Positions 34,230 to 47,343 of a stretch of DNA of 52,754 nucleotides are shown here, piece after piece. The stretch is from positions 1-52,754 of the forward strand of contig BNUH01000016.1 in the NCBI GenBank assembly GCA_025997215.1, read 5' to 3'. The stretch comes from Clostridia bacterium. GTDB taxonomy: Bacteria > Bacillota_A > Clostridia > Christensenellales > Aristaeellaceae. The translations under genes and the position numbers were made by a program. Every line of letters starts with the position of its first letter. The first letter of the stretch is position 1. The notes under the pieces are model-generated. The model made no database searches and had not been told where the DNA came from. It was given only the letters and a program-made list of their open reading frames with translations.

Positions 34230-36083
34230 ATGTCTTATTCTTGGGTGCGCAAGGCAGACCAATGGCAGCTCCATGCTGATGGGGCATCCATCTTATCAAT
34301 CCCATTTGAGCAGGGCTGTGAGGATACCTTCGAACCTATTGCCAATGAACCGGGCGCTTGGCGCTGGACGCGCGTCAGCGCTCAACCCGTGGACGCCATG
34401 AACATGACCATCCACACGCCGAAGGCACGCTACTGGCTGGTACCGGCGGTCAACTACAACGGCAACGGCTGGGGTACTGGCGCGCAATACGGCGGCGATA
34501 TGTGCGACGGCGTGCCGTGGCGGTATGTGTGGCACCGCGTGGCCGTGCCCGCCATGACGTATACTGAAAACGACGCGTGGTCGGTATCCCTGTTCGGCGA
34601 GGAATCAGGCGGCATGAGCTGCTCGCTATTTTCCAGCGAAAGCCAGACGACGCAGCAGCTGCTTTGGCCCGAGGCCGAGGCACCGAAGACGTTATACAAA
34701 CGGTTCTGGGGCGAGGCTTTGTCCAACCCTATGGAACCCGCGACGCAATTCACCGGGATTCTTTATGTAGCTCCATCAGAGGAATTGCGCATGGGCATAC
34801 GCGGCGTGCTAGACTTCGCATGGCGGTTGAGTACGCGGCCAGTTTCGATGCAGTTTTCCCCCGAAGAACTGATTCGTCTGGATACGCTTTACTTTCGGCA
34901 GCTATGGCGTAAGAAGTATGATGGGTTGACAGGATTCTCCGGTTATATGCATTGGGATGAAAGCCAGTCGGCGTTCATCAAATCGAATACCTTTGAGATT
35001 GGTTGGACTGGCCAAAACGCTTCCATCTCGTGCATGCTGTTGAAGGAATACTTGAAAACGGGTGAGGAGAGTCTGCGTGACAAAGCCTTGTCCGTACTGG
35101 ATTCATGGATGAAATATGCGCCCTTGGGCAACGGGCTGATCTTGTGCAACCTCACGCACGATCCGAATCATACGGATTCCGCGCCTAACGGCGATATCCC
35201 TGTTGATCTGGACGCGTGCAACCTTGGCGTAGGTGCGACGTACCTGTTCAAGGCTGCGAAACTCGCCGAGCAGTGCGGCACGCCTCGGCCGCGTTGCCAG
35301 GAGGTCGCGTTAGGTATATGTGATTTTGCGCTGTGCGCCCAGCATGAGAATGGCGAGTTCGCGAAGAGCTGGTTCCTCGACGGTACGGTAAACGCCGCAC
35401 ACGGTACGGTAGGCTCATTCCTGATCCTGCCGCTGTTCGATGCCTATGCGCTGACCCAGGAGAAGAAGTATCTGGACTGCGCACTGAAGGCGTTCGCGTT
35501 CTATTACGGTGAATTCGCGCGCACGGGCGCGACCACTGCGGGTGCGCTGGACAGCAACTGTATCGACAAAGAATCCGCCGCGCCTATGATACGCGCCGCA
35601 TTGTACTGCTATCATACCACAATGGATCGCGCGTACGTTGACGCCGCAGAAGATATCGCTTACTATCTGGCGACATGGATGTGGACTTATTCGGTTAAAT
35701 TCCCGGAAGGCACGCTCGCGCAGCAGATGGGTTATGATACGTTCGGCGGCACGTCGGTATCGGCGGCGCATTGTGCGCAGGATATGTTCGGGCTGTATTG
35801 GGTACCTGAATATCTGGAACTGGCTGAATTGACGGGCAAGCCCATCTGGAAGGAGCGCGCCCGCGCACTGTGGTACAACGGCCTGCAAATGCTGTCGGAT
35901 GGCACGCTCGTCATCAATGGCCGTGTGAGGCCCGCAGGCGGTCAGGATGAATCCATGCGCCATACTTGGTGGGGGAAGGCCGATAAGCGTTGTTTCGTGC
36001 CCTCGGAGCTACTGACCGTATGGCAAGGAATTTACAGGCAAGTGGCGCTTGAAAAGATCACGGACTGGGAGATATTGAGGTAA
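34230..36083 (+). CDS. Probable (alpha/alpha)6-barrel glycan-processing protein
   Basis: ATG 34230 follows GAGGTGACGG. 617 residues, no signal peptide. The N-terminal ~230 residues are beta-rich and aromatic (RYWLVPAVNYNGNGWGTGAQYGGDM). The rest is a helical-repeat region with small, Gly/Ala-rich helices (FLILPLFDAYALTQEKKYLDCALKAFAFYYGEF, AALYCYHTTMDRAYVDAAEDIAYYLATW). This is the six-hairpin glycosidase plan seen in GH127/GH105-like enzymes. I cannot name the family. It is the last gene of the operon and its end overlaps the end of the convergent DUF2877 gene by 26 bases. Confidence 0.6.
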   Translation: MSYSWVRKADQWQLHADGASILSIPFEQGCEDTFEPIANEPGAWRWTRVSAQPVDAMNMTIHTPKARYWLVPAVNYNGNGWGTGAQYGGDMCDGVPWRYVWHRVAVPAMTYTENDAWSVSLFGEESGGMSCSLFSSESQTTQQLLWPEAEAPKTLYKRFWGEALSNPMEPATQFTGILYVAPSEELRMGIRGVLDFAWRLSTRPVSMQFSPEELIRLDTLYFRQLWRKKYDGLTGFSGYMHWDESQSAFIKSNTFEIGWTGQNASISCMLLKEYLKTGEESLRDKALSVLDSWMKYAPLGNGLILCNLTHDPNHTDSAPNGDIPVDLDACNLGVGATYLFKAAKLAEQCGTPRPRCQEVALGICDFALCAQHENGEFAKSWFLDGTVNAAHGTVGSFLILPLFDAYALTQEKKYLDCALKAFAFYYGEFARTGATTAGALDSNCIDKESAAPMIRAALYCYHTTMDRAYVDAAEDIAYYLATWMWTYSVKFPEGTLAQQMGYDTFGGTSVSAAHCAQDMFGLYWVPEYLELAELTGKPIWKERARALWYNGLQMLSDGTLVINGRVRPAGGQDESMRHTWWGKADKRCFVPSELLTVWQGIYRQVALEKITDWEILR

Positions 36084-36831
36084 TCCATTCCCGCGAAGGA
36101 ATGTGAAGATCTTGCGCACAAGCGATGGCGATACCGAACAGCATATCCGCGCCCGATGTAGCGCCGATGCTGGCGGTATCCGCCATCGCCCGTGCAAGGT
36201 CGCCCGAACCAAACACCGCGTCCATCAGCAGAGTTAACGCTTCACTGAAAAACCCTTCGCTCGCCAGACGCAAGTATTTCGCGCTGACATCCGTCGTACG
36301 GTTTAACTCTGTCTCGTCAATTGTCCATGCCTTGCCTTTGGCCGCTTGGAACGCCGCCCATCCAACGGCAGCGTCGTCCACTGACGGCGTAAGCCCCGCA
36401 CCCAAGCCAATGACGTCCGCTATATCGCCGGAGGCAATCGCACGCACTGCGCGCAGTCCGATTGCGTCCGGAAGTCTACAAAATCCGCTAACCAGCCTCA
36501 TTTGCCTGAACATCTCCCAAAACTCCCGTGCGCGCGCTTTCGTACCGTATACGGGAATTCTGCCCGTCCATGTTGAAAACGCCAAAGAATACCGCTCGCC
36601 GCCCATCATCAGCTGATCGCCTTTCAGAATTAGTTCCCCATCCGAAACACATTCCGGCTGCATGAAAAGCGCATCTGGAATACGAAAAGGCGACCCTTCG
36701 GCCACGGTCAGCAACCGTTTGGTGTTATGACTATTATGCAACATAAAATTAACCGCATGCGCAAACCGACTGTGCATGCGGCCAATCCATATGCCATTAT
36801 TTTTCAGTGCTGTGGAAATGTGTGCATCCAT
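36058..36831 (-). CDS. allH: DUF2877 protein, AllH/YlbF-like
   Basis: ATG 36831 overlaps the kinase stop by one base (TGATG). 257 residues with VIGLGAGLTPSVDDAAVGWAAF, the DUF2877 core (GlGpGLTPsgDD), and TTDVSAKYLRLASEGFFSEALTLLMDAVFG then GATSGADMLFG, all as in E. coli YlbF. Work on E. coli assigns FdrA, YlbE and YlbF together to oxamate carbamoyltransferase (oxalurate + phosphate to oxamate + carbamoyl phosphate; AllFGH). It is the last gene of the leftward second unit. The symbol is by family; the substrate here may differ. Confidence 0.85.
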   Translation of the reverse strand: MDAHISTALKNNGIWIGRMHSRFAHAVNFMLHNSHNTKRLLTVAEGSPFRIPDALFMQPECVSDGELILKGDQLMMGGERYSLAFSTWTGRIPVYGTKARAREFWEMFRQMRLVSGFCRLPDAIGLRAVRAIASGDIADVIGLGAGLTPSVDDAAVGWAAFQAAKGKAWTIDETELNRTTDVSAKYLRLASEGFFSEALTLLMDAVFGSGDLARAMADTASIGATSGADMLFGIAIACAQDLHIPSREWITSISPSP

Positions 36832-38006
36832 CAGGAGCCAGCACGCAGCAGCGCTGCACAGCCGCGTGCGACCATCAGCTCCTCATTGGTCGTCAGGGCG
36901 AAAATCGCAATACCGCTGTTACGATTGTGTATAGGCCCGCCTTCGCATAACTCGTTTATACTTTCATCCACCTGTGCGCCGATGAACCCCAGCCGCGCGC
37001 ATACCTCCGCCCGCACGCGCGCACTGTTCGCGCCGATGCCGCCGGTGAATACGAGCGCATCCAGCCCGCCTAAGAAAGCCGTATACATCCCAACATACCC
37101 AACAACCGCGTCACAAAACGCGTCAAACGCGAGGCGCGCCCGTCCGTTCCCCGCATCCATTTCATGGATAACTTCGCGCATGTCCCCGCTGACCCCGCTC
37201 AATCCCAACAGCCCGCCGCGACAGGATATCTCGCGCAGTGCGGCGTTTATGCCGCCCTTCTCCGCGCCGAATAACGGCAAACAGAACGCGTCGAAATCCC
37301 CCACGCGGTTGTTTTGAAAAACGCCGCTCTGCGGTGTGGCGCCCATGGATGTTGCAACGCTCTTCCCATCCGCTATCGCACACAGAGACGACGAGCCGCC
37401 CAGATGCGCCGAGACGATCCGCTTCATCTGCGGATAATCCCGCTGCATGTGCCATGCGATATAGCTGTGGCTGGAGCCGTGAAACCCATACCGCCTGATG
37501 CCAAACCGCTCCACCCACTCATACGGCGCGCCATAAACCGCCCGGTACATCGGTATCTCAGCATGAAATGCCGTCTCGAAACACGCGACCTGTTCCAGCG
37601 TCGGATAAAACTCACCGACCGCGCGCATCATGCGCAGGTAGATGGGATTGTGCGCTGGCGCCAGCTCCGATACACGCTCCATCTCGGCGAATAGGGATTC
37701 ATCCACGCGCTGTGCGCCGCTCAGTCGGCCGCCGTGTACCGCCTTGTAAGCGACCGCGTCCAATCCCGCAATGTCACACTCCGCGCCTATTTGCCGCATG
37801 GCATCCAGGCACGCTTCCAGAGCGGCGACGTGGTCAAGGCAAGTCACACGCGACGTATGAGCGGCTGCATCCACCCGCGCGGCCAAGGTACCCTCGCGTC
37901 CGATATTCTCAACGCTGGCGGAGGCCAGCTCAGTCTCGGAGTCGCCAATGTTGAAGAGTTTACATTTGAAACTGGTCGAACCCAGATTCTGCACAAGAAT
38001 TTTCAT
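36831..38006 (-). CDS. Acetate-kinase-family acyl kinase with altered active site
   Basis: 391 residues, matching acetate/propionate kinase (ASKHA fold) throughout. N7, S10, S12 and K14 of NLGSTSFK form the first phosphate loop; also KAVHGG, LAPAHNP, CFE144TAFH, RRYGFH176GSSH, FTGGIGANS and TTNE376E. Two residues central to AckA chemistry differ: Arg91 of HRVVHGG is Lys88 here, and catalytic Asp148 of FDTAFH is Glu144. Arg241 is kept as R234 (NNRVGDFD, not GTRSGDID). It probably makes ATP from an acyl- or carbamoyl-like phosphate produced by the FdrA/DUF1116/DUF2877 complex, in place of the carbamate kinase usual in such clusters. Confidence 0.85.
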   Translation of the reverse strand: MKILVQNLGSTSFKCKLFNIGDSETELASASVENIGREGTLAARVDAAAHTSRVTCLDHVAALEACLDAMRQIGAECDIAGLDAVAYKAVHGGRLSGAQRVDESLFAEMERVSELAPAHNPIYLRMMRAVGEFYPTLEQVACFETAFHAEIPMYRAVYGAPYEWVERFGIRRYGFHGSSHSYIAWHMQRDYPQMKRIVSAHLGGSSSLCAIADGKSVATSMGATPQSGVFQNNRVGDFDAFCLPLFGAEKGGINAALREISCRGGLLGLSGVSGDMREVIHEMDAGNGRARLAFDAFCDAVVGYVGMYTAFLGGLDALVFTGGIGANSARVRAEVCARLGFIGAQVDESINELCEGGPIHNRNSGIAIFALTTNEELMVARGCAALLRAGS

Positions 38007-38048
38007 ACCCAGCCCTCATACCTTCGCGCAATCCTCACACGCCGTTGC

Positions 38049-39305
38049 TTATCCGCGATACCGCGCCGCGAAAGCCTTCATAGCCTTCTCGAAGCACAGC
38101 ATTGGCACGCGCGCCATGCCCGCGCCGATCAGCCCGCCTTCATAGTTGAACATACCGCCGTGGATAGCAGGAAGGATGCCTGTCTTCAACACCAGACGGA
38201 TGTCCATTCCGACGGGCAGAAAGTCAAAATCCAGGTTGGGTATCGCGAAGTTTGGGTTTTTGCCGATTGCGATGCGCTCCATTTCGCGCGTTTGAGCAAT
38301 GCCATCCGCGAGTGTCATGCTGCGCAGGCTGCAGACTATCGGGCTGGCCGCCGCCGCAAACCCGCCCATGCCGTAGCATTCCACGACGCAGGAGTCGCCG
38401 ATCCACGGCAGCTGATCCTTTTCAGAATATTGGGAGGAGGTATAGCGGCCTTTCATCATAGGCGCTGGCGCGCAAAACCATTCGCCGGGCAATCCCGCCA
38501 CCTGAATGCCGAACTCTACACCGTTGCCGCATGCCGCGGTTACCATCGTCGCATACTCCGTCCCTTCCGCAGCCAACGCAGCGGCGCGGCTCGCGCCCTG
38601 CCCGTAGCAATGGAAGAATCTCGGCGTATCGACAATATACCGGACGGCTTGCATGATCCGTTCCTTGGGTTCATCCAGCGCAAACAAATCGGGCAAGAAT
38701 TGCTTATCAAACAGCAAATCGGCGGCCGTCTGACGCGTATGGTTTTCGTCGCCCATCTGCATGCCTTCCGCCAGGATCGGCTTGATCGAAAGCCCGCCGC
38801 GTTTCATTAGCGCTTCACGGATCAGCGGGAACAGTTCCTCGCGCATCACGCGCAGGTTTTCGGCGATATCTTCCGAATACAGCCCCCAGCCGCAGAAGCC
38901 GCCCTGAAACTTGCCTTCGGCAGGGAAAGTCGCCGCGCGCTTGCCGCTGCGTCGGTCTTCGATCACGTTCATCATGACGGACTGCGTGATGATGCCCGTG
39001 CCCGCACCGACCGTATTGTGGTTCAACGCGCTATCGATCTTTATCTCACCCGCCCGAATGCGTTGAACCGCTTCCGCTTCGTCACGCGCCCAGCCTTCAA
39101 AAAGCATCGCGCTGACCATCCCTCGCCGATGCAGCATCACCATATCCGAATAATCAATCGGCGGCCCGGAATGCAGGATCATATGATCCGTCAGCCCATC
39201 CACGCATTCACCCGCCGGCTGCACATCGATCCATATGGGGTCTGACTCAACCAAACATTGCAGCGCGGCATCATTCGCCCGCGCAATCTTCTCTCGGATA
39301 TCCAT
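38049..39305 (-). CDS. allG: DUF1116 protein, AllG/YlbE-like
   Basis: ATG 39305 follows AGAGG at 7 bases. 418 residues, the same length as E. coli YlbE. Conserved blocks include GWARDEAEAVQRIRAGEIKIDSALNHNTVGAGTGIITQSMP-like (SVMM), LAEGMQMGDENHTRQTAADLLF, ACGNGVEFGIQVAGLPGEWFCAPAPMMKG, CYGMGGFAAAASPI and GKNPNFAIPNLDFDFLPVGMDIRLVLKTGILPAIHGG. It is a subunit of the AllFGH-type transferase with the FdrA gene upstream and DUF2877 downstream. First gene after the internal promoter at 39481. 42 bases separate it from the kinase. Confidence 0.88.
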   Translation of the reverse strand: MDIREKIARANDAALQCLVESDPIWIDVQPAGECVDGLTDHMILHSGPPIDYSDMVMLHRRGMVSAMLFEGWARDEAEAVQRIRAGEIKIDSALNHNTVGAGTGIITQSVMMNVIEDRRSGKRAATFPAEGKFQGGFCGWGLYSEDIAENLRVMREELFPLIREALMKRGGLSIKPILAEGMQMGDENHTRQTAADLLFDKQFLPDLFALDEPKERIMQAVRYIVDTPRFFHCYGQGASRAAALAAEGTEYATMVTAACGNGVEFGIQVAGLPGEWFCAPAPMMKGRYTSSQYSEKDQLPWIGDSCVVECYGMGGFAAAASPIVCSLRSMTLADGIAQTREMERIAIGKNPNFAIPNLDFDFLPVGMDIRLVLKTGILPAIHGGMFNYEGGLIGAGMARVPMLCFEKAMKAFAARYRG

Positions 39306-39333
39306 GAACGATCCTCTTTCTATTGAGATATTT

Positions 39334-39591
39334 TAACGTGAGTTCGATGCTGCCGAACATGCCGCATGGAGCGCTGCGACAATGGGCAGCTTCGTTTTCA
39401 CGTATCAGGATCAGCATACACCGCAGCGAGGCGGCACTGCGAAACAGCGAATCCTTCAAGCACATCTGTGTTATGAGCAAAGCATATCACAACTTTACGC
39501 TGTTGTCAAGTCAAAAAACTACAAAATTTTGTGGTAAGTCTTCCCAAAATTTCATCTGTGAAGCCCCTATCTGCCCAGCGAACTCACGTTA
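39334..39591. repeat. 13-bp inverted repeats flanking an internal promoter
   Basis: TAACGTGAGTTCG at 39334-39346 is repeated exactly inverted at 39579-39591. The 232-base interior holds the strong leftward promoter at 39481-39509 and most of the DUF1116 leader. This is the layout of an invertible promoter (phase switch), as in fimS. No invertase gene is next to it. A pair of operator sites for DNA looping is the alternative. Confidence 0.6.
39481..39509 (-). promoter_or_regulatory. Internal promoter for DUF1116-kinase-DUF2877
   Basis: On the minus strand TTGACA (39509-39504), exactly 17-base spacer, TATGCT (39486-39481). Start near 39474, so the leader is ~170 bases and contains inverted segments such as GCTGCC/GGCAGC (39349-39354 with 39385-39390) and CATGCGGCATG. 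A perfect palindrome ACAAAATTTTGT (39521-39532) lies just upstream of the -35 box and may be an operator. Confidence 0.75.
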
Positions 39592-39593
39592 TT

Positions 39594-39749
39594 TTACAAA
39601 AACTCATCGAGCAGCGCGTCAATTTCTTCGCTGTGTTCCGGCGGCACCTGCCACTCAATCTGAACGGCTTTGATGTTCTGAATAAGAAGCGCCTCGTAGA
39701 ACGCCTGTGTTCCTACATGAATTGCACGCGGTTTTTCATCCAAATTCAT
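39594..39749 (-). CDS. 51-residue FdrA C-terminal-domain-like protein
   Basis: ATG 39749 lies 5 bases after the FdrA stop, with GGGAGG inside the end of fdrA as its ribosome site. The product starts MNLDEKPRAIHVGTQAFYEA and continues with IKAVQIEWQVPPEHSEEIDALLDEFL. The pattern I.vG...F...L..q...vv.v.W.PP.....l..LL matches what I know as small 'fdrA domain' proteins in Firmicutes, so it may be the FdrA C-terminal end split off as its own gene. The FdrA here (502 residues) is about 50 shorter than E. coli FdrA, which agrees. Likely part of the complex. Confidence 0.7.
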   Translation of the reverse strand: MNLDEKPRAIHVGTQAFYEALLIQNIKAVQIEWQVPPEHSEEIDALLDEFL

Positions 39750-39754
39750 CTACT

Positions 39755-41263
39755 CTACCTCCCATCCAGCCGCAGAATCAGAGCCGCCATCCTTCGGGCC
39801 GCCTCCGTGCTGCTTTTCGCGACGACTGCACCCGCTTGTTCCAGTGAAACGCGCGCCGCTTCTATATTCTGCGGATCCCTTGCCGCGCCGCAGATATGCG
39901 TAATGAACAATATCTCCGGATGCTGAGCGATCACCGGGAGAAAGGGGCCAAACGGATCTTGCGCAACCCCAGGTCCTGTGATGAAATCCAACACAATGGC
40001 CGCTGTTTCCGCATCCTCCGCCGCAGCGCGTACATGTTTAAGCCGGATGGACGCGTCAAACACAGGATGCGGCGCGTCTACAGTGAACTCTTCCGTCCCC
40101 ATATCCACCAAGGAATGACACGATTCCCGCAGCGTCGCGCCGTCCGGTTTCACGTGCACATTTGTAAGGATTCGGGAGTTAGCGCAGCTATGGGAGATGA
40201 TTTGCATTGCCTCTTCCGCGAACGTGCCGCCGCAATACAGCCCGTGAACCCATCGCCGTTTCGGATTCATGGCCGCGACACTCGACGCCGCCCACGCATC
40301 GATTACCTTATCCGGCGCACTCCATTGCGCTGCGTCTATCCGCAGCATTTTCACACAATCGACAGCGGCTTCTTCAAGATTCCTTGCGCCGATCGAGCGA
40401 TGCCCTTCGAACAATGCCTGATCCGCGCCGAGAAACATCGCAACTACAGGCTTGCCTAAGCAGTCCGCTTCGCGCAGCACGCTCTCCATAACGCCGCTGT
40501 CGGCAGCCTTGGATATCAAACAAATCACCGCTGTTTTCGCATCATCGCGCAGCTTCTCCAGCGCCATCCGCATGGATATCCCGCCTATTTCCGGCTGCAG
40601 ATCACGCCCGCCTGTCGCGAGAATGCATCGCACCCCCACGCCCATACGCTCCAGCTGACAGGCGATCTCCTGTGCTCCGGAACCTGACGCCGCAACGATA
40701 CCGACAGGCCCTTCCTGCACGATGCTGCCCGCAGCCAAAGCGACGCCGCCGATCAATCCGACGCCGGCATCCGGCCCCATCACCAGCAAACCTTTTTCCT
40801 GCCCTAACCGTTTTAGCCGCCGCTCATCCTCCAGTGACACATGATCCGAAAACAAGAACACATCCAACCCCATGCAGAGCGCTTGCTCCGCTTCCTTTAC
40901 GGCATATTGACCGGGCAGTGAAATCTGCACAAGGTCATATCCATCCTGCTGCAAGTTGATCTCCGACAGCGCGCGGTATACATGGGCCGATGCGCTCCTG
41001 CCGCGCGATAAATAAGCCTGTGCGGAAGCACACGCGGCTTCACACTGTGCGTCCGTATCCGCATCTATCGCAATCATCAAGTCCTGCTTGGTTGTGCCTT
41101 CCGGCACGGTATAACGCAGCGAAGCCAGCAGGTCTATGTTCGCCTGTGTTCCCATACCGCTTTCCGCACCGTGCACGCCCGGCAGCGCTTGCAACGACTG
41201 CGCAGCGCCCATGAGCGTCACCGAATCGACATACCGATTTTTCACCACAAAAACTTGCTTCAC
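39755..41263 (-). CDS. fdrA: FdrA/AllF, CoA-ligase-like subunit of the AllFGH-type transferase
   Basis: GTG 41263 overlaps the upstream stop as GTGA. 502 residues. The N-terminal region is FdrA-specific (VFVVKNRYVDSVTLMGAAQSLQALPGV). A succinyl-CoA-synthetase-alpha-like Rossmann part follows (LLVMGPDAGVGLIGGVALAAG, EGPVGIVAASGSGAQEIACQLERMGVGV, ILATGGRDLQPEIGGISM). A second ligase-like half has RWVHGLYCGGTFAEEA and IVLDFITGPGVAQDPFGPF. In E. coli it is a subunit of oxamate carbamoyltransferase. Here it closes an operon of redox and dehydratase genes, which hints at a different carboxylic substrate. Confidence 0.9.
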   Translation of the reverse strand: MKQVFVVKNRYVDSVTLMGAAQSLQALPGVHGAESGMGTQANIDLLASLRYTVPEGTTKQDLMIAIDADTDAQCEAACASAQAYLSRGRSASAHVYRALSEINLQQDGYDLVQISLPGQYAVKEAEQALCMGLDVFLFSDHVSLEDERRLKRLGQEKGLLVMGPDAGVGLIGGVALAAGSIVQEGPVGIVAASGSGAQEIACQLERMGVGVRCILATGGRDLQPEIGGISMRMALEKLRDDAKTAVICLISKAADSGVMESVLREADCLGKPVVAMFLGADQALFEGHRSIGARNLEEAAVDCVKMLRIDAAQWSAPDKVIDAWAASSVAAMNPKRRWVHGLYCGGTFAEEAMQIISHSCANSRILTNVHVKPDGATLRESCHSLVDMGTEEFTVDAPHPVFDASIRLKHVRAAAEDAETAAIVLDFITGPGVAQDPFGPFLPVIAQHPEILFITHICGAARDPQNIEAARVSLEQAGAVVAKSSTEAARRMAALILRLDGR

Positions 41264-42873
41264 CCGCCGACCGCCTCCCTGGTAAGCGCAATACCATTAT
41301 CATTATGATTGCGCAGTATTACATGGCTGGGTAACGATGCCGGGCGTGGAAAATCGAGGCGCACATGACAGCCAACGCTTTCCTCGCGCGCCAACGCGCC
41401 GGTGACCAGCAGCAATCCCGCCAGCACATCATTGCACAGCCGTATCTTATAGAATGCCTCGCGTTCATTGGAACAGGATAGAGCGCGCGCTTCCGCTGCC
41501 AGCGATTCCAGCTTTTCACGTGCCGGGATCAGCTTTGCACCCTCGCGCAGTACGCCTACAGAGGCAGTGAGAATCTCCTCCAGTTCTGCCCGGATCGTAT
41601 CGGCGCGCACGGTGTCCCATACGCCGGATAAGGAACCCAGTTCATCCGCCGCCCAAGCCTCGCCGCCGCTGTCATCCGCTGGCACTGCACGCGCATATTC
41701 CGCAGCGGACTTGCCTGCCCGCCCGCCAAACACCAGTGTTTCAAGCCCGGCGTTTCCGCCGATGCGGTTCGCTCCATGTATGCCGCCCGCAGCCTCGCCA
41801 CAGACATATAGTCTCGCGACTGCTGTCGCGCAGTGGGGATCTATGCGAACGCCACCTAACGCTGTATGCGGCGCGGGTGCGACCTCAATCGGTTCTTTCG
41901 ACAGATCGATGCCTACATGCGCGTACCGCTCGACATACATCGGATATACAGCGCGCAGCCGTTCCGCACCGACGCCTGTCGCGTCGAACCAAATCCCGCC
42001 ATGCGGGGACGCTCGGTCAGCGCGAATCTCAATGGCCATCGCTCGCGCAAGCGCGTCTTTGTTTGCGCGTTCGCCTTTGCTGCTGTAGTGCAGCATGAAT
42101 CGATCGCCAAGACCGTTTCGCAGCACGGCGCCTTCATACAGCATCGTCGTGATGACGCTGGTTCCCCGGAGCGCGGGTGGGTATATCGCGGCGCTTGGCT
42201 CAAACTGGATCAATTCCACATCGATTAGCGGCGCGCCCGCACGGAACGCCATCGCGATGCCGTCCCCGCTGGAATCCTGTTTGTTGGTTGTGAATGGATA
42301 TATGCCGCAAAACCCGCCAGCGGCCAGCACGACTGTACTCGCTGCGACATAGATCATCGTGTTTTCGAGAGTATCATACACCAGCGCGCCGCGCACATGG
42401 CCGGACACTGTGCGCAGTGCGATTGCGCGGGAGTTTTCCAGTATATCGAATCGACCTTCCGCGCTCGCTTCGATGCTGCGTATGATGGCGATGCCTGTTT
42501 CGTTGCCGACGCTAGCCACCCGTGGATAGCGCGAACCCAGCGGCCGGAGCAGCAGCGGTGTGCCAGCAGCATCTCGATTGAACCGCAGCCCGGCGTGTTC
42601 CAACGTTTCCACAATATTTGTGCCATTTTCGCACAGCGCGCGAACCAGCTCCGGTTCGCCCAGCCCATAGCCGCAGCGCAGGGTATCCTCCATAAACGCC
42701 TCAACCGAATCTTCAGGTGAGAGCGGCGCGTTGAAGCCGTGCACCCATGGCGACGCGCCGCGTCCATCACGGACGACCAATGCCCGAACGCCATATGCTG
42801 CGGCTGTGTCGGCGGCGGTCAGCCCTGACAGCCCGCCGCCTATTACCAGCAAATCCGTTTGGATAGTTTTCAT
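41260..42873 (-). CDS. Fumarate-reductase/aspartate-oxidase-like FAD enzyme
   Basis: ATG 42873 overlaps the dehydratase stop as TAATG. 537 residues. FAD-binding motif LLVIGGGLSGLTAADTAAAYGVRALVV at the N-terminus; VLAAGGFCG; SSGDGIAMAFRAGAPLIDVELIQFEP; APAPHTALGGVRID; RIGGNAGLETLVFGGRAGKSAA (the flavin-closing motif of the SdhA/FrdA/NadB family). A C-terminal helical domain is present. No signal peptide or haem sites, so a soluble enzyme of the L-aspartate-oxidase or soluble fumarate-reductase kind. It probably oxidises or reduces an intermediate between the dehydratase and FdrA steps. Confidence 0.87.
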   Translation of the reverse strand: MKTIQTDLLVIGGGLSGLTAADTAAAYGVRALVVRDGRGASPWVHGFNAPLSPEDSVEAFMEDTLRCGYGLGEPELVRALCENGTNIVETLEHAGLRFNRDAAGTPLLLRPLGSRYPRVASVGNETGIAIIRSIEASAEGRFDILENSRAIALRTVSGHVRGALVYDTLENTMIYVAASTVVLAAGGFCGIYPFTTNKQDSSGDGIAMAFRAGAPLIDVELIQFEPSAAIYPPALRGTSVITTMLYEGAVLRNGLGDRFMLHYSSKGERANKDALARAMAIEIRADRASPHGGIWFDATGVGAERLRAVYPMYVERYAHVGIDLSKEPIEVAPAPHTALGGVRIDPHCATAVARLYVCGEAAGGIHGANRIGGNAGLETLVFGGRAGKSAAEYARAVPADDSGGEAWAADELGSLSGVWDTVRADTIRAELEEILTASVGVLREGAKLIPAREKLESLAAEARALSCSNEREAFYKIRLCNDVLAGLLLVTGALAREESVGCHVRLDFPRPASLPSHVILRNHNDNGIALTREAVGG

Positions 42874-44552
42874 TACGCTTCCCAGATGCCGCCCTTGGCC
42901 ATGGAGCCGATGTTTTGGGAGAACAGCCTTAAGAAGCGCGGGTAATCACTGGCAGGGAACTTCCAGTCGAACGCTGCGGTCCGTTTCACGATTTCCTCTT
43001 CGCTCACGCTCATGTCAATCCGCCGTGCTGGGACATCGATGATGATCTCATCGCCATCGCGAATGGCAGCCAACGGGCTGCGCAATGCCGCCTCGGGCGA
43101 GATGTATCCGACCGACAAACCGCTCGTGCCGCCCGAGAAGCGTCCGTCTGTCAAAATCGCACAGGAATTATATAGTTCCTTCTGCCCTTTCAGCTCCTCT
43201 TGGAATGTGAACGCCGTTGTGCCAAACCGACCCTTCAGCCCCATATACCGCAGCACAATCGCGTCGCCTGGCTGTATCTGGCCGCCGCGCAGCGCGGCTA
43301 ACCCGGCATCCAGCGAATCGTAGCATTTCGCCTTCCCTTTGAATTGCATCAGCTGCGCTGGTACGGCGGCAATCTTGAGGATCGATCCTTCCGGCGCGAT
43401 GTTGCCATACAGTACGCCGATCCCTGGTTCGCGCATGACGGGATTGTCCAGCGAGCGTATACAGTCGCTGTTGTAGATCACTGCGTTCGTGACGTTCTCG
43501 GCCAGTGTATGCCCTGTCACGGTCAGGCAGCCGCCTTCCAGTGCGGGCAGCATGGATTTGATCAGGCCGCGCATGCCTCCGGCCAGGTCGAAATCCTTCA
43601 CCGAATACTCGCCGCCCGGCATCAGATGACTCAACAGCGGTATCTCATTGGAAGCCTCGTCGAAATACTTCCACCAAGGCAAATCATATCCCGCCTCGTG
43701 CGCAATCGCCGGGATGTGCAGGATCAGGTTGGATGAACCTGCGACAGCCATATCCACCTTGATCGCATTGCGGATCGCATCAACCGTCATGATCTGCCGC
43801 GCCGTGATCCCTTCTTGCACCAGACGCATGATCTGACGTCCCGCTTCATAGGAGAGCGCGCGTATCTCGGATGAGACTGCGCTCATGGATGAATTGCCGG
43901 GCAGCGTCATACCCATCGCTTCAGCGATCATGCACATGCTGTTCGCGGTGGTCATTGATGTGCACGCACCGCATATGCCCCATGACGATGCAATCAGTCC
44001 GTTATACTCATCCATGTCGATGCGGCCTTCCTGCGCCGCGCCGACTTTATCCTGCGCGCGGATGTGCACGACTTCCTGTCCGCGGAATTGGCCGTGCGGC
44101 ATGTACCCACCTGTTACAATAATCGTTGGGATATTCAGCCGCGCCGCGCCCATTAAGTGGCCGGGTACAATCGAGTCGCAGGTGGATAGCATCACCATGC
44201 CATCGAAGAAGTTGCCCTCCACGGTTAACTCCACTTGGTCGGCGATCGAGTTACGGCTGGGTATCTCGATATATTTGGGATCTTTCAATACCATGCCGTC
44301 GCAAATCGCGGTGGTCATCACCTCTAACGGCAACCCGCCCATCTCGCGAATCCCCTGCTTGACGCGCTCCGCCAGCTGCCCCAGGTGAATGTGTCCCGGG
44401 TTGTACTCGTTCCACGAATTGACTACCGCGATCAGCGGCCGTTGCAACTCTTCCTCGGTATAGCCCATACCCAGCATCAACCCGCGCCGACATTCAGACG
44501 CCTCACCGAATTCCCAGCAGCTGCGCATTTCCTGGTACGATTTCTTAGCCAT
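42873..44552 (-). CDS. IlvD/Edd-family dehydratase
   Basis: ATG 44552 is chosen for its AGGAGGAAG site; a frame 13 codons longer has none. 559 residues. Family motifs: VVNSWNEYNPGHIHL, ICDGM, SRNSIADQVE, STC125DSIVPGHLMGAARLNIP, GIC194GAC197TSMTTANSM...LPGNSS, LTDGRFSGGTSGLSVGYISPEA. The NPGH segment, rather than NPCH, is like E. coli IlvD ([4Fe-4S] type) and unlike the [2Fe-2S] sugar-acid dehydratases. The family dehydrates 2,3-dihydroxy acids, including sugar acids. Given the SDR and glycosidases nearby and no other branched-chain amino acid genes, a sugar acid is the likelier substrate. Confidence 0.88.
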   Translation of the reverse strand: MAKKSYQEMRSCWEFGEASECRRGLMLGMGYTEEELQRPLIAVVNSWNEYNPGHIHLGQLAERVKQGIREMGGLPLEVMTTAICDGMVLKDPKYIEIPSRNSIADQVELTVEGNFFDGMVMLSTCDSIVPGHLMGAARLNIPTIIVTGGYMPHGQFRGQEVVHIRAQDKVGAAQEGRIDMDEYNGLIASSWGICGACTSMTTANSMCMIAEAMGMTLPGNSSMSAVSSEIRALSYEAGRQIMRLVQEGITARQIMTVDAIRNAIKVDMAVAGSSNLILHIPAIAHEAGYDLPWWKYFDEASNEIPLLSHLMPGGEYSVKDFDLAGGMRGLIKSMLPALEGGCLTVTGHTLAENVTNAVIYNSDCIRSLDNPVMREPGIGVLYGNIAPEGSILKIAAVPAQLMQFKGKAKCYDSLDAGLAALRGGQIQPGDAIVLRYMGLKGRFGTTAFTFQEELKGQKELYNSCAILTDGRFSGGTSGLSVGYISPEAALRSPLAAIRDGDEIIIDVPARRIDMSVSEEEIVKRTAAFDWKFPASDYPRFLRLFSQNIGSMAKGGIWEA

Positions 44553-44603
44553 AAACTTCCTCCTATCAAAATCGTTCTTAATTGATATCAACTGATATAG
44601 TCT

Positions 44604-45395
44604 TTATATTTCATCATCCTGCATACAGTCAATCGCACCGTCTATGGACTGGCCGCCGTCGATAAATATCGTTTGGCCGACGATGAAGCGGCTCTTTTCC
44701 TTGTCCGCAAGAAACAATATCATCGGCACTATATCCGACGGCTGCGCGCCATATCCCACGGGGATTTTCCTGTTGAATCCTTCAATATCCCGCGCTGAAT
44801 AGCGGCTGATGATCTTGGTATAGACCAGCCCTGGCGCAATGCAGTTGACATTGATTCCATGTTTCGCCAACTCGACGCCGATGGATTTTGTGAACATGTT
44901 AAGGCCTGCCTTGCCCGCGGAGTATGGCAGCGCCTTGCGCTTCACCCATGTCACCGCGCTGTGGACGGAGCTGATGTTGATGATTGCGCCGCGCACGCCT
45001 TTTGTTACCATATCCTTCGCAGCGGCACGCGCGCAATACGCGGCGGCGTTCAGGTTCAGCGCGATCTGTTCATCCCAGTATTCCATCGGCATGTCGATGA
45101 ATCCGCCTTTGGGCATCTGCAGCGCGCCGCCCGCGTTATTAACCAGCACATCGACTTTCCCAAACCGTTCTATAAAGGAAGCCAGCATACGCTCACAATC
45201 CGCGCGTTGACTGACATCCGCCTGACAAATTTCTACATCCGCGCCCGCTTCGCGGCATAATTCGGCGGTTTCCTGCGCTCCTTCAGGGGTTTTATGGTAA
45301 TTTATACCGACGTCATACCCTTCCTTTGCAAACGCGACGGCAGTTGCAGCGCCAATTCCATGAGACGATCCCGTAATCAGTACACTCTTTTTCAC
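44604..45395 (-). CDS. SDR dehydrogenase, glucose-1-dehydrogenase-like
   Basis: GTG 45395 overlaps the upstream stop as GTGA and has AGGAG 7 bases away; an earlier GTG at 45401 is too close to that site. 263 residues with TGSSHGIGAATA (NAD(P) loop), LVNNAGG, INISSVHS (catalytic Ser), PYSAGKAG (Tyr and Lys), INVNCIAPGLVYT and FIDGGQS. Length and motifs are those of classical SDRs. It may oxidise an aldose to its lactone or reduce a keto intermediate. 51 bases separate it from the dehydratase. Confidence 0.88.
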   Translation of the reverse strand: MKKSVLITGSSHGIGAATAVAFAKEGYDVGINYHKTPEGAQETAELCREAGADVEICQADVSQRADCERMLASFIERFGKVDVLVNNAGGALQMPKGGFIDMPMEYWDEQIALNLNAAAYCARAAAKDMVTKGVRGAIINISSVHSAVTWVKRKALPYSAGKAGLNMFTKSIGVELAKHGINVNCIAPGLVYTKIISRYSARDIEGFNRKIPVGYGAQPSDIVPMILFLADKEKSRFIVGQTIFIDGGQSIDGAIDCMQDDEI

Positions 45396-46270
45396 ACGCA
45401 CCCGCTCCTTTTTAGAAACTCACTGACTGTGTATAATGGTAAAAACAGATACGCAGGTTCCCGGCTCCCCATCCGTCGCAGTAATGCGCGCGCAATTTCC
45501 GGGGCATCGTTCACACCGTCAGCGCGTATAGCCGCAATCGCATCACTATATTGCGCAACTAGATTGTCGCACAACTGCAGATATTGCTTAGACTCTACGA
45601 TGCCGCTCGCACTATCGCCGAGCGGCAGAAACCAGTGCCCCGCGATGATATTATGAATATCCAACTCCAATAGCCGCTCAATCGACAGCATATATCCTTC
45701 GAGATCCATAATCAGCGCGACCCCTTGTGTGACGGTGCCATTCAGCTGCAGCGAATCACCCGTGATCAGCGTGCGGCTTCTCTCATCCAACCAACATACA
45801 GCATCCGCATCATGCCCCGGCGTGTGAATCAGGCGCAAGTTGTCGTCGAGCCATTCACCATCATGCAGCAATCGGTCCGGTGTCACACCATCCAGTACTG
45901 CGGGCGGAGCTGGGCTGTACTTGGGGAAAACGGATCGTATCTTTTTGGAATAATACAGCGGGTTGCGCAGCCGATCCTCCGAGCCATCAAAGGCAGCAAT
46001 CTTAACGCCTGGCGCCAATTCATGGATACGCGCGTGGCCACCGATATGGTCTCCATGGGTATGTGTACACAACAGCCAGCGGATATCGTTCAACGTCAGA
46101 TGCATCCGCGCCAAAGCTGGAACCAGGACGCCGTCAATGGACGCCGCATCCGCGCCGCTGTCGATTAAGCAATATGTACCGCTACTATTCACGAGCACGG
46201 CGCTCGTCGATTCGCTGAAGGGCAGTTTCAAACGATAGATGTCAGGCGCAACGCATTCGAATTGCTCCAC
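45392..46270 (-). CDS. Metallo-beta-lactamase-fold hydrolase
   Basis: GTG 46270 has GGGGAGGG 6 bases upstream; the longer frame from 46312 overlaps the promoter region and lacks a site. 292 residues. Metal-binding H70-T-H72-G-D74-H75, then HTPGHDADAVCWL, LITGDSL and IIAGHWF supply the two-metal site. A C-terminal helical extension of ~80 residues follows. Members include lactonases and thioesterases. As first gene of the operon before a dehydrogenase and dehydratase, a lactonase-like role is a reasonable inference. Confidence 0.85.
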   Translation of the reverse strand: MEQFECVAPDIYRLKLPFSESTSAVLVNSSGTYCLIDSGADAASIDGVLVPALARMHLTLNDIRWLLCTHTHGDHIGGHARIHELAPGVKIAAFDGSEDRLRNPLYYSKKIRSVFPKYSPAPPAVLDGVTPDRLLHDGEWLDDNLRLIHTPGHDADAVCWLDERSRTLITGDSLQLNGTVTQGVALIMDLEGYMLSIERLLELDIHNIIAGHWFLPLGDSASGIVESKQYLQLCDNLVAQYSDAIAAIRADGVNDAPEIARALLRRMGSREPAYLFLPLYTVSEFLKRSGCV

Positions 46271-46319
46271 AGTATCCCTCCCCACCGAGCGGAAGAACGC
46301 GCCGCAGCGCATTCATTCC

Positions 46320-46365: not shown

Positions 46366-46459
46366 TAGGATATGAAAGAATACATACTTCATCCACAATA
46401 TACACACGCCTTGGAGTGCATTCGCAAGCGAAAAACACATGCCCGCGCGGTTTTACCGA

Positions 46460-46488
46460 TTGATGCCGCCCGACCAGTGCGCTATGAT
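46460..46488 (+). promoter_or_regulatory. Promoter of the epimerase gene, start of transcription at the ATG
   Basis: TTGATG (46460-46465), 17-base spacer, TATGAT (46483-46488), then ATAGTT and ATG 46495. The usual start 7 bases after the -10 is the A of the start codon, and there is no ribosome site, so a leaderless mRNA is predicted. Confidence 0.55.
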
Positions 46489-46494
46489 ATAGTT

Positions 46495-47343
46495 ATGAAA
46501 GATAGAATCATCAAGAGCGATCAATTGATCGTGCATGTAAACCCGTTTGGCGCAGAGTTGCGCGGGGTGGAGCGGGATGGCGTTGAGTATTTATGGCAAG
46601 GCGATCCGCGTTATTACGCGCGGACGGGGCCGACGCTGTTTCCGATCGTTGGCCGCTTTGTAAGCGATACCTATTATGTAGGAGATCGCGCGTACCGAAT
46701 GCCGCTTAACGGGTTCGCGATGGAGGAAATCTTCACTGTCATTGACCTATCGAATGACTCTATAGAAATGGAGCTTGTCGATACTGCCGCGACACGCGCC
46801 GTGTATCCCTTCTCATTTCGCCTACGCGTACGGTATACCGTTGTAGGCGCGGCGTTGACAGTTCGTTTTCAAGTACAAAACACCGGGGCGGTTATCCTGC
46901 CATATGGCGTTGGCAATCATACCGCGTACCGATGGCCTATGATGGACGGCGACAGCGCACAGGATGCATTCCTTCGTTTCGAATGCCAGGAGACATTGCG
47001 CTCCTTCAACCCATTTGGCTGGACTGACGATTTTCTATCCAATCAAAGCATCAAACCGCTGTCGCATACCTTATTCGAAAACTTCACTCGCAGCCTAACC
47101 GATATACAATCCCAATGGGTCGCGCTGGAAAGCCGGAATCACCCGCACGGGATCCGCATAACGCGAGAGCAGTTTCCTTTTCTGGCCATCTGGTCACTGC
47201 CGGATGAGGCAGCGCAAGTTATATGCCTGGAGCCGTGCACAAGCATCCACACAGGCGGCACAACGCTGAACGATCGCAAGGGGATCGACCTGCTTTCCCC
47301 CGGCGAAACACGCGAGCGTGTTTTCTCGATTGAATTTTTTTGA
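46495..47343 (+). CDS. Aldose 1-epimerase-like protein
   Basis: ATG 46495 is chosen because the family begins at MKDRIIKSDQLIVHVNPFGAELRGVERDGVEYLWQGDP. The longer frame from 46372 would put the start upstream of the promoter. 282 residues with GPTLFPIVGR, PYGVGNHTAYRWP (catalytic-site His) and LEPCTSIH (the Glu region) of the galactose-mutarotase superfamily, in the LacX-like subgroup. It likely interconverts anomers of an aldose or sugar derivative used by the adjacent leftward operon. Confidence 0.85.
   Translation: MKDRIIKSDQLIVHVNPFGAELRGVERDGVEYLWQGDPRYYARTGPTLFPIVGRFVSDTYYVGDRAYRMPLNGFAMEEIFTVIDLSNDSIEMELVDTAATRAVYPFSFRLRVRYTVVGAALTVRFQVQNTGAVILPYGVGNHTAYRWPMMDGDSAQDAFLRFECQETLRSFNPFGWTDDFLSNQSIKPLSHTLFENFTRSLTDIQSQWVALESRNHPHGIRITREQFPFLAIWSLPDEAAQVICLEPCTSIHTGGTTLNDRKGIDLLSPGETRERVFSIEFF

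Follow-up and report, generated by a model that had tools for sequence, protein, structure and literature searches.

Genes of the Operon

The window analyzed here, the whole of a 52,754-nucleotide stretch from a Clostridia bacterium of the Aristaeellaceae (GCA_025997215.1, contig BNUH01000016.1, positions 1 to 52,754), carries an operon in which homologues of the three subunits of the Escherichia coli AllFGH complex are encoded together with an acetate-kinase-family kinase and enzymes of sugar-acid type. Nine co-directional minus-strand genes run from position 46312 to 36058. They encode, in order, an MBL-fold metallo-hydrolase (306 amino acids, aa; 45392..46312; PF00753, 76 bits), an SDR dehydrogenase (265 aa; 44604..45401; PF13561/PF00106), an IlvD/EDD dehydratase (572 aa; 42873..44591; PF00920/PF24877), an FAD_binding_2 flavoprotein (FAD) of fumarate reductase/L-aspartate oxidase fold (537 aa; 41260..42873; PF00890, 196 bits), an AllF/FdrA subunit (502 aa; 39755..41263; PF00549, Ligase_CoA), a 51-aa free AllF tail domain (39594..39749; custom profile), an AllG/DUF1116 subunit (418 aa; 38049..39305; PF06545), a kinase of the K91/E148/G211 clade described below (391 aa; 36831..38006; PF00871, 290 bits), and an AllH/DUF2877 subunit (257 aa; 36058..36831; PF11392, 69 bits).

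Overlaps or short gaps join the genes throughout, the exception being a 288-base gap 5' of AllG. The four upstream genes (FAD, IlvD/EDD, SDR, and MBL) overlap by 1 to 10 bases or are separated by 12 bases, and the kinase and AllH open reading frames (ORFs) have one base in common. A sequence-only reading of this DNA had described AllF/FdrA, a small ORF, DUF1116, an acetate-kinase-family gene and DUF2877 as co-directional, with that one-base overlap, and the ORFs and families are as it stated. All five genes are real, but its interval (36058..41263) was too short and left out four upstream pathway genes: from their spacing and conservation, the MBL, SDR, IlvD/EDD, and FAD genes are part of the operon. 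It had also noticed sugar-acid enzymes, not allantoin genes, around the cluster, and no carbamate kinase or allantoin gene was found in the window operon.

The AllF protein scores below the cut-off of the NCBIfam FdrA model (332 vs. 433 bits), and its best solved relative is E. coli FdrA (3DMY, E = 1.7e-55). Structural matches to the AllG model came from its own family alone, and none was found for the AllH model.

Conservation Among Relatives

Two short peptide patterns from an AllG alignment were used to scan 84,980 species genomes, and the best 80 of 113 relatives were kept. In 23 of these, AllG is 57–83% identical to that of the window, and in the remainder 38% or less. The close relatives comprise Clostridia and Lentisphaerae, Victivallales, Opitutales, and Verrucomicrobia assemblies, with one isolate, Oligosphaera ethanolica. 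Their 23 loci contain AllF (22), IlvD (20, at 57–84% identity to the window's), FAD (20), SDR (19), MBL (18), kinase (18), and AllH (18). Shortfalls reflect short contigs in L009 and L017 and are real in L021, where AllF, kinase, and AllH are all missing. The order MBL-SDR-IlvD-FAD-AllF-tail-AllG-kinase-AllH is kept in Clostridia, with local moves in L008, L011, L014, and L023, and the same genes occur in divergent order in the Lentisphaerae, Opitutales, and Verrucomicrobia loci.

The 57 distant loci carry AllF (56) and AllH (32) and, in part, PucR, M20, Ldh_2, cupin, and amidohydrolase genes; MBL was matched weakly in one and SDR weakly in five. Because the kinase (18/23), IlvD (20/23), and FAD (20/23) recur in the close loci and each is found in none of the 57 distant ones, the association is not a matter of chance. 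When AllG neighborhoods were scored for kinase type, as the sequence-only reading had proposed, the K91/E148/G211 (hereafter K/E/G) kinase was found at 18 of the 23 close loci and at none of the 57 distant ones, and carbamate kinase, by profile, at none of the close loci and at 52 of the distant ones. Its idea that an acetate-kinase relative stands in place of carbamate kinase thus proved conserved, specific, and phylogenetically clean.

Further loci came from a census of AllG (PF06545) in overlapping genome sets: the class of G001 (391 genomes, 24 positive), the phylum of G017, G017 being the Oligosphaera genome (387 genomes, 28 positive), the order of G001 (297 genomes, eight matches, seven over the cut-off), and the order of G437 (137 genomes, nine). 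The first set supplied the neighborhoods of 28 places, the second those of 20 out of 32 (two others being already in the sample and ten allantoin-type places omitted), and the later sets those of five genomes (three allantoin-type ones omitted); all were annotated with profiles from the first loci.

This sample showed several arrangements. KDPG aldolase, IlvD, kinase, AllG, AllF, AllH, and FAD occur together in L172, L173, and L287, and most of them in L174. AllG without AllF, AllH, or kinase, accompanied by at least one of MBL, SDR, IlvD, and FAD, was seen in L171 (where the contig stops just past AllG), L021, L210, L211, L213, L214, L215–L222, and L289. FAD, AllF, AllG, SDR, MBL, and IlvD are present in L208 with no kinase in view, the kinase lying in another locus of the same genome, L018. 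A second operon of genome G002, which also holds L002, encodes a TAXI-TRAP transporter, AllF, AllG, FAD, a K/E/G kinase, AllH, KDPG aldolase, and a PfkB kinase (L118, 5579-16931). Since no SDR, MBL, or IlvD is among the L118 genes in view and FAD, AllFGH, and kinase are all retained, these last look like a core for the steps that follow the 2-keto-3-deoxy stage.

Phylogeny and Residues of AllG

The AllG tree (IQ-TREE, quick mode) was built from 92 rows, with one in three carbamate-kinase entries retained and AllG pieces under 300 aa omitted; L286–L291 were placed by context instead. It divides into two halves of 46 rows with a split support of 99. In the sugar-acid half, IlvD, FAD, or MBL accompanies AllG at the loci of 39 of the 46 rows, and the other seven have AllF and kinase, AllF only, or nothing visible. 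In the other half none of the 46 rows has IlvD, FAD, or MBL; its loci show carbamate kinase (19), AllF but neither kinase (22), nothing visible (3), or an acetate-kinase-family gene (2). One of the last two, L170, has a K/E/G kinase but sits on a very long branch, and its position is unsure. The other, L227 (7551-13643), has an AllF-AllG pair of the allantoin side, and an acetate kinase gene of ordinary type follows some 2 kb downstream.

Carbamate kinase shares a locus with FAD, IlvD, or the K/E/G kinase in none of the 57 AllG entries that have it (55 loci, 52 of them among L024–L080; L056 has three AllG entries). The claim is accordingly limited to the mutual exclusion, within a locus, of carbamate kinase on the one hand and FAD, IlvD, or the new kinase on the other; it is not that each AllG adjoins a kinase.

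Seven alignment columns distinguish the two halves. The contrast was found on 36 chosen sequences (21 vs. 15) and then repeated on all 92 tree rows: G102, G139, Q192, H232, G260, W301, and G383 are present in 46 of 46 sugar-acid rows (with one gap at 383), vs. M102, R139, N192, L232, R260, D301, and T383 in 40 of 46 rows on the other side. The six deviating rows are L161, L162, L163, and L167 (I at 232), L036 (a divergent archaeal record), and L170, whose A, R, Q, L, G, Y, and G at these positions are intermediate and partly sugar-acid-like. Four of these differences put glycine where the other side has a large residue, which suggests a site with space for an acyl group larger than carbamoyl. 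Within the sugar-acid side, no AllG column separated AllF-linked from AllG-only rows (14 vs. 7).

The Operon Kinase

Kinase positions are numbered by alignment to the Methanosarcina thermophila enzyme. The operon kinase shares with the acetate and propionate kinases AckA and TdcD their fold and N7, H123, H180, R241, and E384 (gaps occur at N7 in one row and at E384 in one trimmed row), residues with functional roles in acetate kinase. Unlike AckA and TdcD, the whole operon-kinase clade has K91, E148, and G211, where ordinary members have R91, D148, and N211. Residues were compared in 33 K/E/G and 22 other rows, then in another three operon kinases and five kinases of other type, and then in 17 further full-length others; 42 of the 44 full-length other-type kinases carry R, D, and N, and two carry R, D, and G. 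Among the best public homologues listed, the window's own included, all 120 are K/E/G.

In a tree of 63 rows (at least 330 aa, identical sequences merged), the 36 K/E/G rows, which represent 32 genes as four trimmed near-duplicates remain, and the 27 others lie on opposite sides of one branch with a support of 100. The window kinase covers all of the PF00871 profile (positions 1–392 of 392) and narrowly misses the cut-off of the NCBIfam ackA model TIGR00016 (292.4 vs. 293.4 bits). Among the genomes of the 23 close relatives, all but the L021 genome encode a K/E/G kinase (22), and 20 have an ordinary-type gene, which is partial in one case; 19 of the 22 with a K/E/G kinase have a separate ordinary-type acetate kinase gene as well. 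The sequence-only reading had allowed that the kinase might prove to be ordinary acetate kinase with no functional link, but its distinct clade, its altered active-site residues, and the ordinary gene elsewhere in 19 of 22 genomes indicate that it is not.

Joint Inheritance of Kinase and AllF

The K/E/G kinase was found in 28 of 29 genomes with a sugar-acid-side AllG (side assigned by tree or context) plus AllF, and in none of 15 with such an AllG and AllF nowhere in the assembly; these assemblies are mostly metagenome-assembled genomes whose completeness is not established, and the AllF-less call for G673 comes from a possibly incomplete one. The 29 genomes are the 22 of L001–L020, L022, and L023, together with G064, G137, G074, G199, G900, G831, and G1080. 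The 15 are G437, G767, G498, G597, G414, G576, G708, G765, G548, G607, G020, G297, G744, G673, and G1095, and 13 of them have IlvD, FAD, or MBL at the AllG locus (G597 has SDR only, and G744, at a contig end, nothing). On the AllG tree, AllF underwent four or more changes, and the kinase moved in the same direction in four of four cases. Because AllG occurs without AllF in sugar-acid loci whose assemblies, where tested, contain no AllF (L211, L213–L222, L289, L021, and L171), we suggest that AllG has an activity of its own.

Flavoprotein, SDR, and Dehydratase

Like fumarate reductase and L-aspartate oxidase, the operon flavoprotein has the FAD_binding_2 fold. Its residues E225, K272, H336, and R370 do not vary among the 32 rows compared, which include the window's protein and omit fragments. 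They align opposite L-aspartate oxidase H244, R290, H351, and R386, the active-site carboxylate-binding residues of that enzyme. One carboxylate-binding pair thus appears to be retained (H336 and R370) and the other altered, E225 and K272 replacing H244 and R290, as would be expected for a single-carboxylate substrate.

The NCBIfam names matched by the SDR include glucose 1-dehydrogenase and L-rhamnose 1-dehydrogenase, none over its cut-off among the 25 matches listed, and glucose 1-dehydrogenases are among its best solved relatives. The IlvD/EDD protein, at 523 bits, does not reach the 618-bit cut-off of the IlvD equivalog model.

Proposed Pathway

We consider it probable, though not strongly so, that the operon is catabolic and serves a neutral aldose or its sugar acid, through phosphorolysis of a 2,4-diketo acid by AllFGH and an ATP-forming kinase. 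We infer the reaction steps, the sugar, and the direction from the gene content, conservation, joint inheritance, clades, and residue changes described above. The SDR, a putative aldose 1-dehydrogenase (or 2-keto-3-deoxy acid 4-dehydrogenase), would convert the aldose to its lactone; the MBL-fold hydrolase, a candidate aldonolactonase, would open the lactone to the aldonate; and IlvD/EDD, as an aldonate dehydratase, would yield the 2-keto-3-deoxy acid. The flavoprotein would take a hydride off C4 and a proton off C3, leaving a 2,4-diketo acid (R-CO-CH2-CO-COO-) in its enol form, α,β-dehydrogenation being the usual chemistry of the fumarate-reductase-like flavoprotein family. Phosphate attack at C4 by AllF/AllG/AllH would then release pyruvate and an acyl phosphate (R-CO-OPO3), and the dedicated kinase, a predicted acyl-phosphate:ADP kinase, would use the latter with ADP to form ATP and a free hydroxy acid (glycolate, lactate, or glycerate, by sugar). 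Glycoloyl, lactoyl, and glyceroyl phosphate are the candidates for the acyl phosphate, the sugar not being fixed, and AllG alone would perform a hydrolytic version of the cleavage.

In E. coli, AllFGH carries out phosphorolysis of oxalurate to carbamoyl phosphate and oxamate, according to the available part of PMC11326118. Oxalurate (H2N-CO-NH-CO-COO-) is isosteric with a 2,4-diketo acid, NH2 standing for R and NH for CH2. The same phosphorolysis, with CH2 in place of NH and a carbon chain in place of NH2, would therefore yield pyruvate and an acyl phosphate from a 2,4-diketo acid. As in the E. coli AllFGH/AllK system (PMC11326118, available part), three homologous subunits and a phosphotransferase are encoded in one operon, and the proposed logic runs from R-CO-X-CO-COO- through an acyl phosphate to ATP. 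Unlike AllFGH/AllK, the window operon has an acetate-kinase-family kinase, sugar-acid enzymes upstream in place of allantoin genes, and an AllG that belongs to the other half of the family tree and differs at seven fixed positions.

An established hydrolytic route employs a 2-keto-3-deoxy acid 4-dehydrogenase and then a 2,4-diketo acid hydrolase to form pyruvate and lactate (PMC11199699, available part). The proposed pathway resembles this non-phosphorylating L-fucose/L-rhamnose route (FucG, LRA6), as far as the available part of that source describes it, in C4 oxidation of a 2-keto-3-deoxy acid and cleavage to pyruvate plus a hydroxy acid. It differs in using AllG with or without AllF, AllH, and kinase, in a flavoprotein that replaces or stands beside the SDR step, and in the proposed gain of ATP. 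FucG and LRA6 are FAH-family hydrolases; no FAH-family domain was found in the ten operon-region proteins scanned, where alone it was sought.

The branch point of the pathway appears to be the 2-keto-3-deoxy acid, as the KDPG aldolase and PfkB genes of close loci, the L118 operon, and a single in-frame AllH-KDPG/KHG aldolase fusion of 480 aa (L004, 12420-13862) all point to it. In the window, KDPG aldolase and PfkB kinase genes do not adjoin the operon.

A more specific proposal, about which we are nearly evenly divided, is that the complex is a 2,4-diketo-3-deoxy-aldonate phosphorylase of AllFGH type, performing a cofactor-free C–C cleavage, and that the kinases form a new hydroxyacyl kinase clade for substrate-level ATP formation. 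AllG alone would be the hydrolytic ancestor or a reduced form, and AllF, the tail, AllH, and kinase an energy-conserving add-on repeatedly gained or lost together. Among the matches listed from the open-licence PMC literature, no paper described such a route. The sequence-only reading had arrived, naming no substrate, at phosphorolytic release of an acyl phosphate or a similar product followed by ATP formation; as a whole it is partly supported, and the phosphorolysis, the identity of the acyl phosphate, and the ATP yield stay predictions from sequence.

Weighing the Evidence

Several observations weigh against the proposed pathway. We know of no fumarate-reductase-type flavoprotein that oxidizes a 4-hydroxyl, a step that the SDR might perform. 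In G1080, the sole miss among the 29 AllF-bearing genomes, AllF is accompanied by an ordinary-type kinase only, in an assembly whose contig ends inside AllG. The independent-pairs sign test for kinase and AllF has only four pairs (p = 0.125), which puts significance out of reach. The three Verrucomicrobia/Opitutales loci L015, L019, and L020 lack a kinase, the single acetate-kinase-family gene of each genome being K/E/G and unlinked to AllG, and L018 lacks both FAD and IlvD within 10 kb, the two being present in the second locus of its genome, L208. AllG, AllF, and a K/E/G kinase occur without IlvD or FAD in L170 (9308-14042) and L288 (9422-13682), a probable third use of the module; the surroundings of L170 are polysaccharide-related (esterase, arabinofuranosidase, and GH3 genes). 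KDPG aldolase (10/23) and PfkB kinase (11/23) in close loci offer the 2-keto-3-deoxy acid an alternative fate. Finally, M20 peptidase, DHO dehydrogenase-like, and purine/pyrimidine permease genes lie a few kb from the sugar-acid operon in L005 (14541-20501); the M20 cluster is in none of the other 22 close loci, the DHO dehydrogenase-like and permease genes having been sought in L005 alone.

Some of these points would suit a different acid handled by the same module with the same acyl-phosphate logic: the SDR could make the 4-keto group while the flavoprotein performs another redox step, or the acid might not be a 2,4-diketo acid. We regard this as unlikely, although it deserves real weight, as the known L-2-keto-3-deoxyfuconate 4-dehydrogenase is an SDR enzyme (PMC11199699, available part), the altered flavoprotein active site, with its invariant E225 and K272, leaves the reaction unreadable from relatives, and L170 and L288 keep the AllG-AllF-kinase set without FAD and IlvD. 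Against it stands the TRAP-type operon L118, in which the flavoprotein accompanies AllFGH and kinase with no SDR in view, placing the flavoprotein and not the SDR next to the cleavage.

We find it improbable that AllFGH is still a carbamoyltransferase which obtains carbamoyl phosphate from an oxalurate-like ureide, the kinase being a non-orthologous carbamate kinase. The subunits are homologous to those of E. coli oxamate carbamoyltransferase (PMC11326118, available part), and a replacement kinase would be needed: besides the lack of carbamate kinase at all 23 close loci, a full-length copy is missing from 17 of the 23 genomes and, in the six that have one (three above the curated cut-off), is never on the AllG contig. 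Allantoin and ureide genes, however, are missing from the window operon and the conserved set, the partners being SDR, MBL, IlvD, and FAD in 18–20 of 23 loci; AllG has seven fixed changes relative to the carbamoyl type; and the kinase falls within the acetate/propionate kinase family.

A synthetic direction, in which the kinase spends ATP on an acyl phosphate that the complex condenses, or in which the complex is a CoA ligase as older FdrA annotations have it, seems very improbable. AllF does resemble succinyl-CoA ligase subunits (PF00549 over the cut-off, PF13607 and PF02629 under it), and acetate kinases are reversible. The neighboring genes, however, are of catabolic type (solute-binding proteins, an aldose epimerase, GH43, GH32, and a probable regulator of the Peripla_BP_3 family), and the 15 genomes with AllG and neither AllF nor kinase are better explained by a step that saves energy and can be dispensed with than by an activation that the pathway requires. 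That the kinase is an ordinary acetate kinase in the operon by chance is scarcely credible, as its PF00871 membership and one-bit shortfall against TIGR00016 are set against its distinct clade, its altered R91, D148, and N211, the second ordinary-type gene in 19 of 22 genomes, and its inheritance with AllF.

If the proposed pathway is correct, it would add a new ATP-forming reaction to fermentation and, in bacteria of the gut, the rumen, and sediments, give a function to many proteins now named DUF1116, FdrA, or acetate kinase. The still poorly understood AllFGH chemistry would be general, a phosphorolysis beside an α-keto acid with nitrogen or carbon as the leaving atom, and the loci would constitute a natural experiment, one pathway with and without its energy-saving module. 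For annotation, the K/E/G residue code tells operon kinases from acetate kinases.

Tail Domain, Insertion, and Neighboring Genes

The 51-aa ORF had no family match in the domain scan. A profile built from its relatives locates it at the C-terminal end of long AllF proteins, at the N-terminal end of certain AllG proteins, or in a free ORF between AllF and AllG. Because it is homologous to these parts and free-standing in many relatives, we regard it as a real gene, a split-off AllF tail; the sequence-only reading had called it a small fdrA-like gene, which holds and is here made more exact. In many allantoin-type loci, including L160 and L165, AllF, tail domain, and AllG share a single open frame that spans some 1000 codons from stop to stop, and these may represent natural AllF-AllG fusions.

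Between the tail-domain gene and AllG lies a 258-bp insertion (39334..39591) with terminal inverted repeats of 13–16 nt (94%). The gap between the two genes, measured to the profile-defined AllG start, is 300 nt in the window vs. 25–47 nt in 20 relatives. The 13-base repeat was not found elsewhere in the window (at most one mismatch), nor as an exact copy in 291 loci. The insertion looks like a small element resembling a miniature inverted-repeat transposable element, and it holds a promoter-like TTGACA-17-TATGCT directed at AllG, in a scan whose total number of matches was no higher than in shuffles.

An aldose 1-epimerase gene (46372..47343, plus strand; PF01263) diverges from the operon. 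Relatives of it occur at five of the 23 close AllG loci, and a different aldose epimerase adjoins operon genes in L016. Farther off, among GH32-type genes, the window encodes a 794-aa PFL-like glycyl radical enzyme family protein (22659-25043; PF02901).

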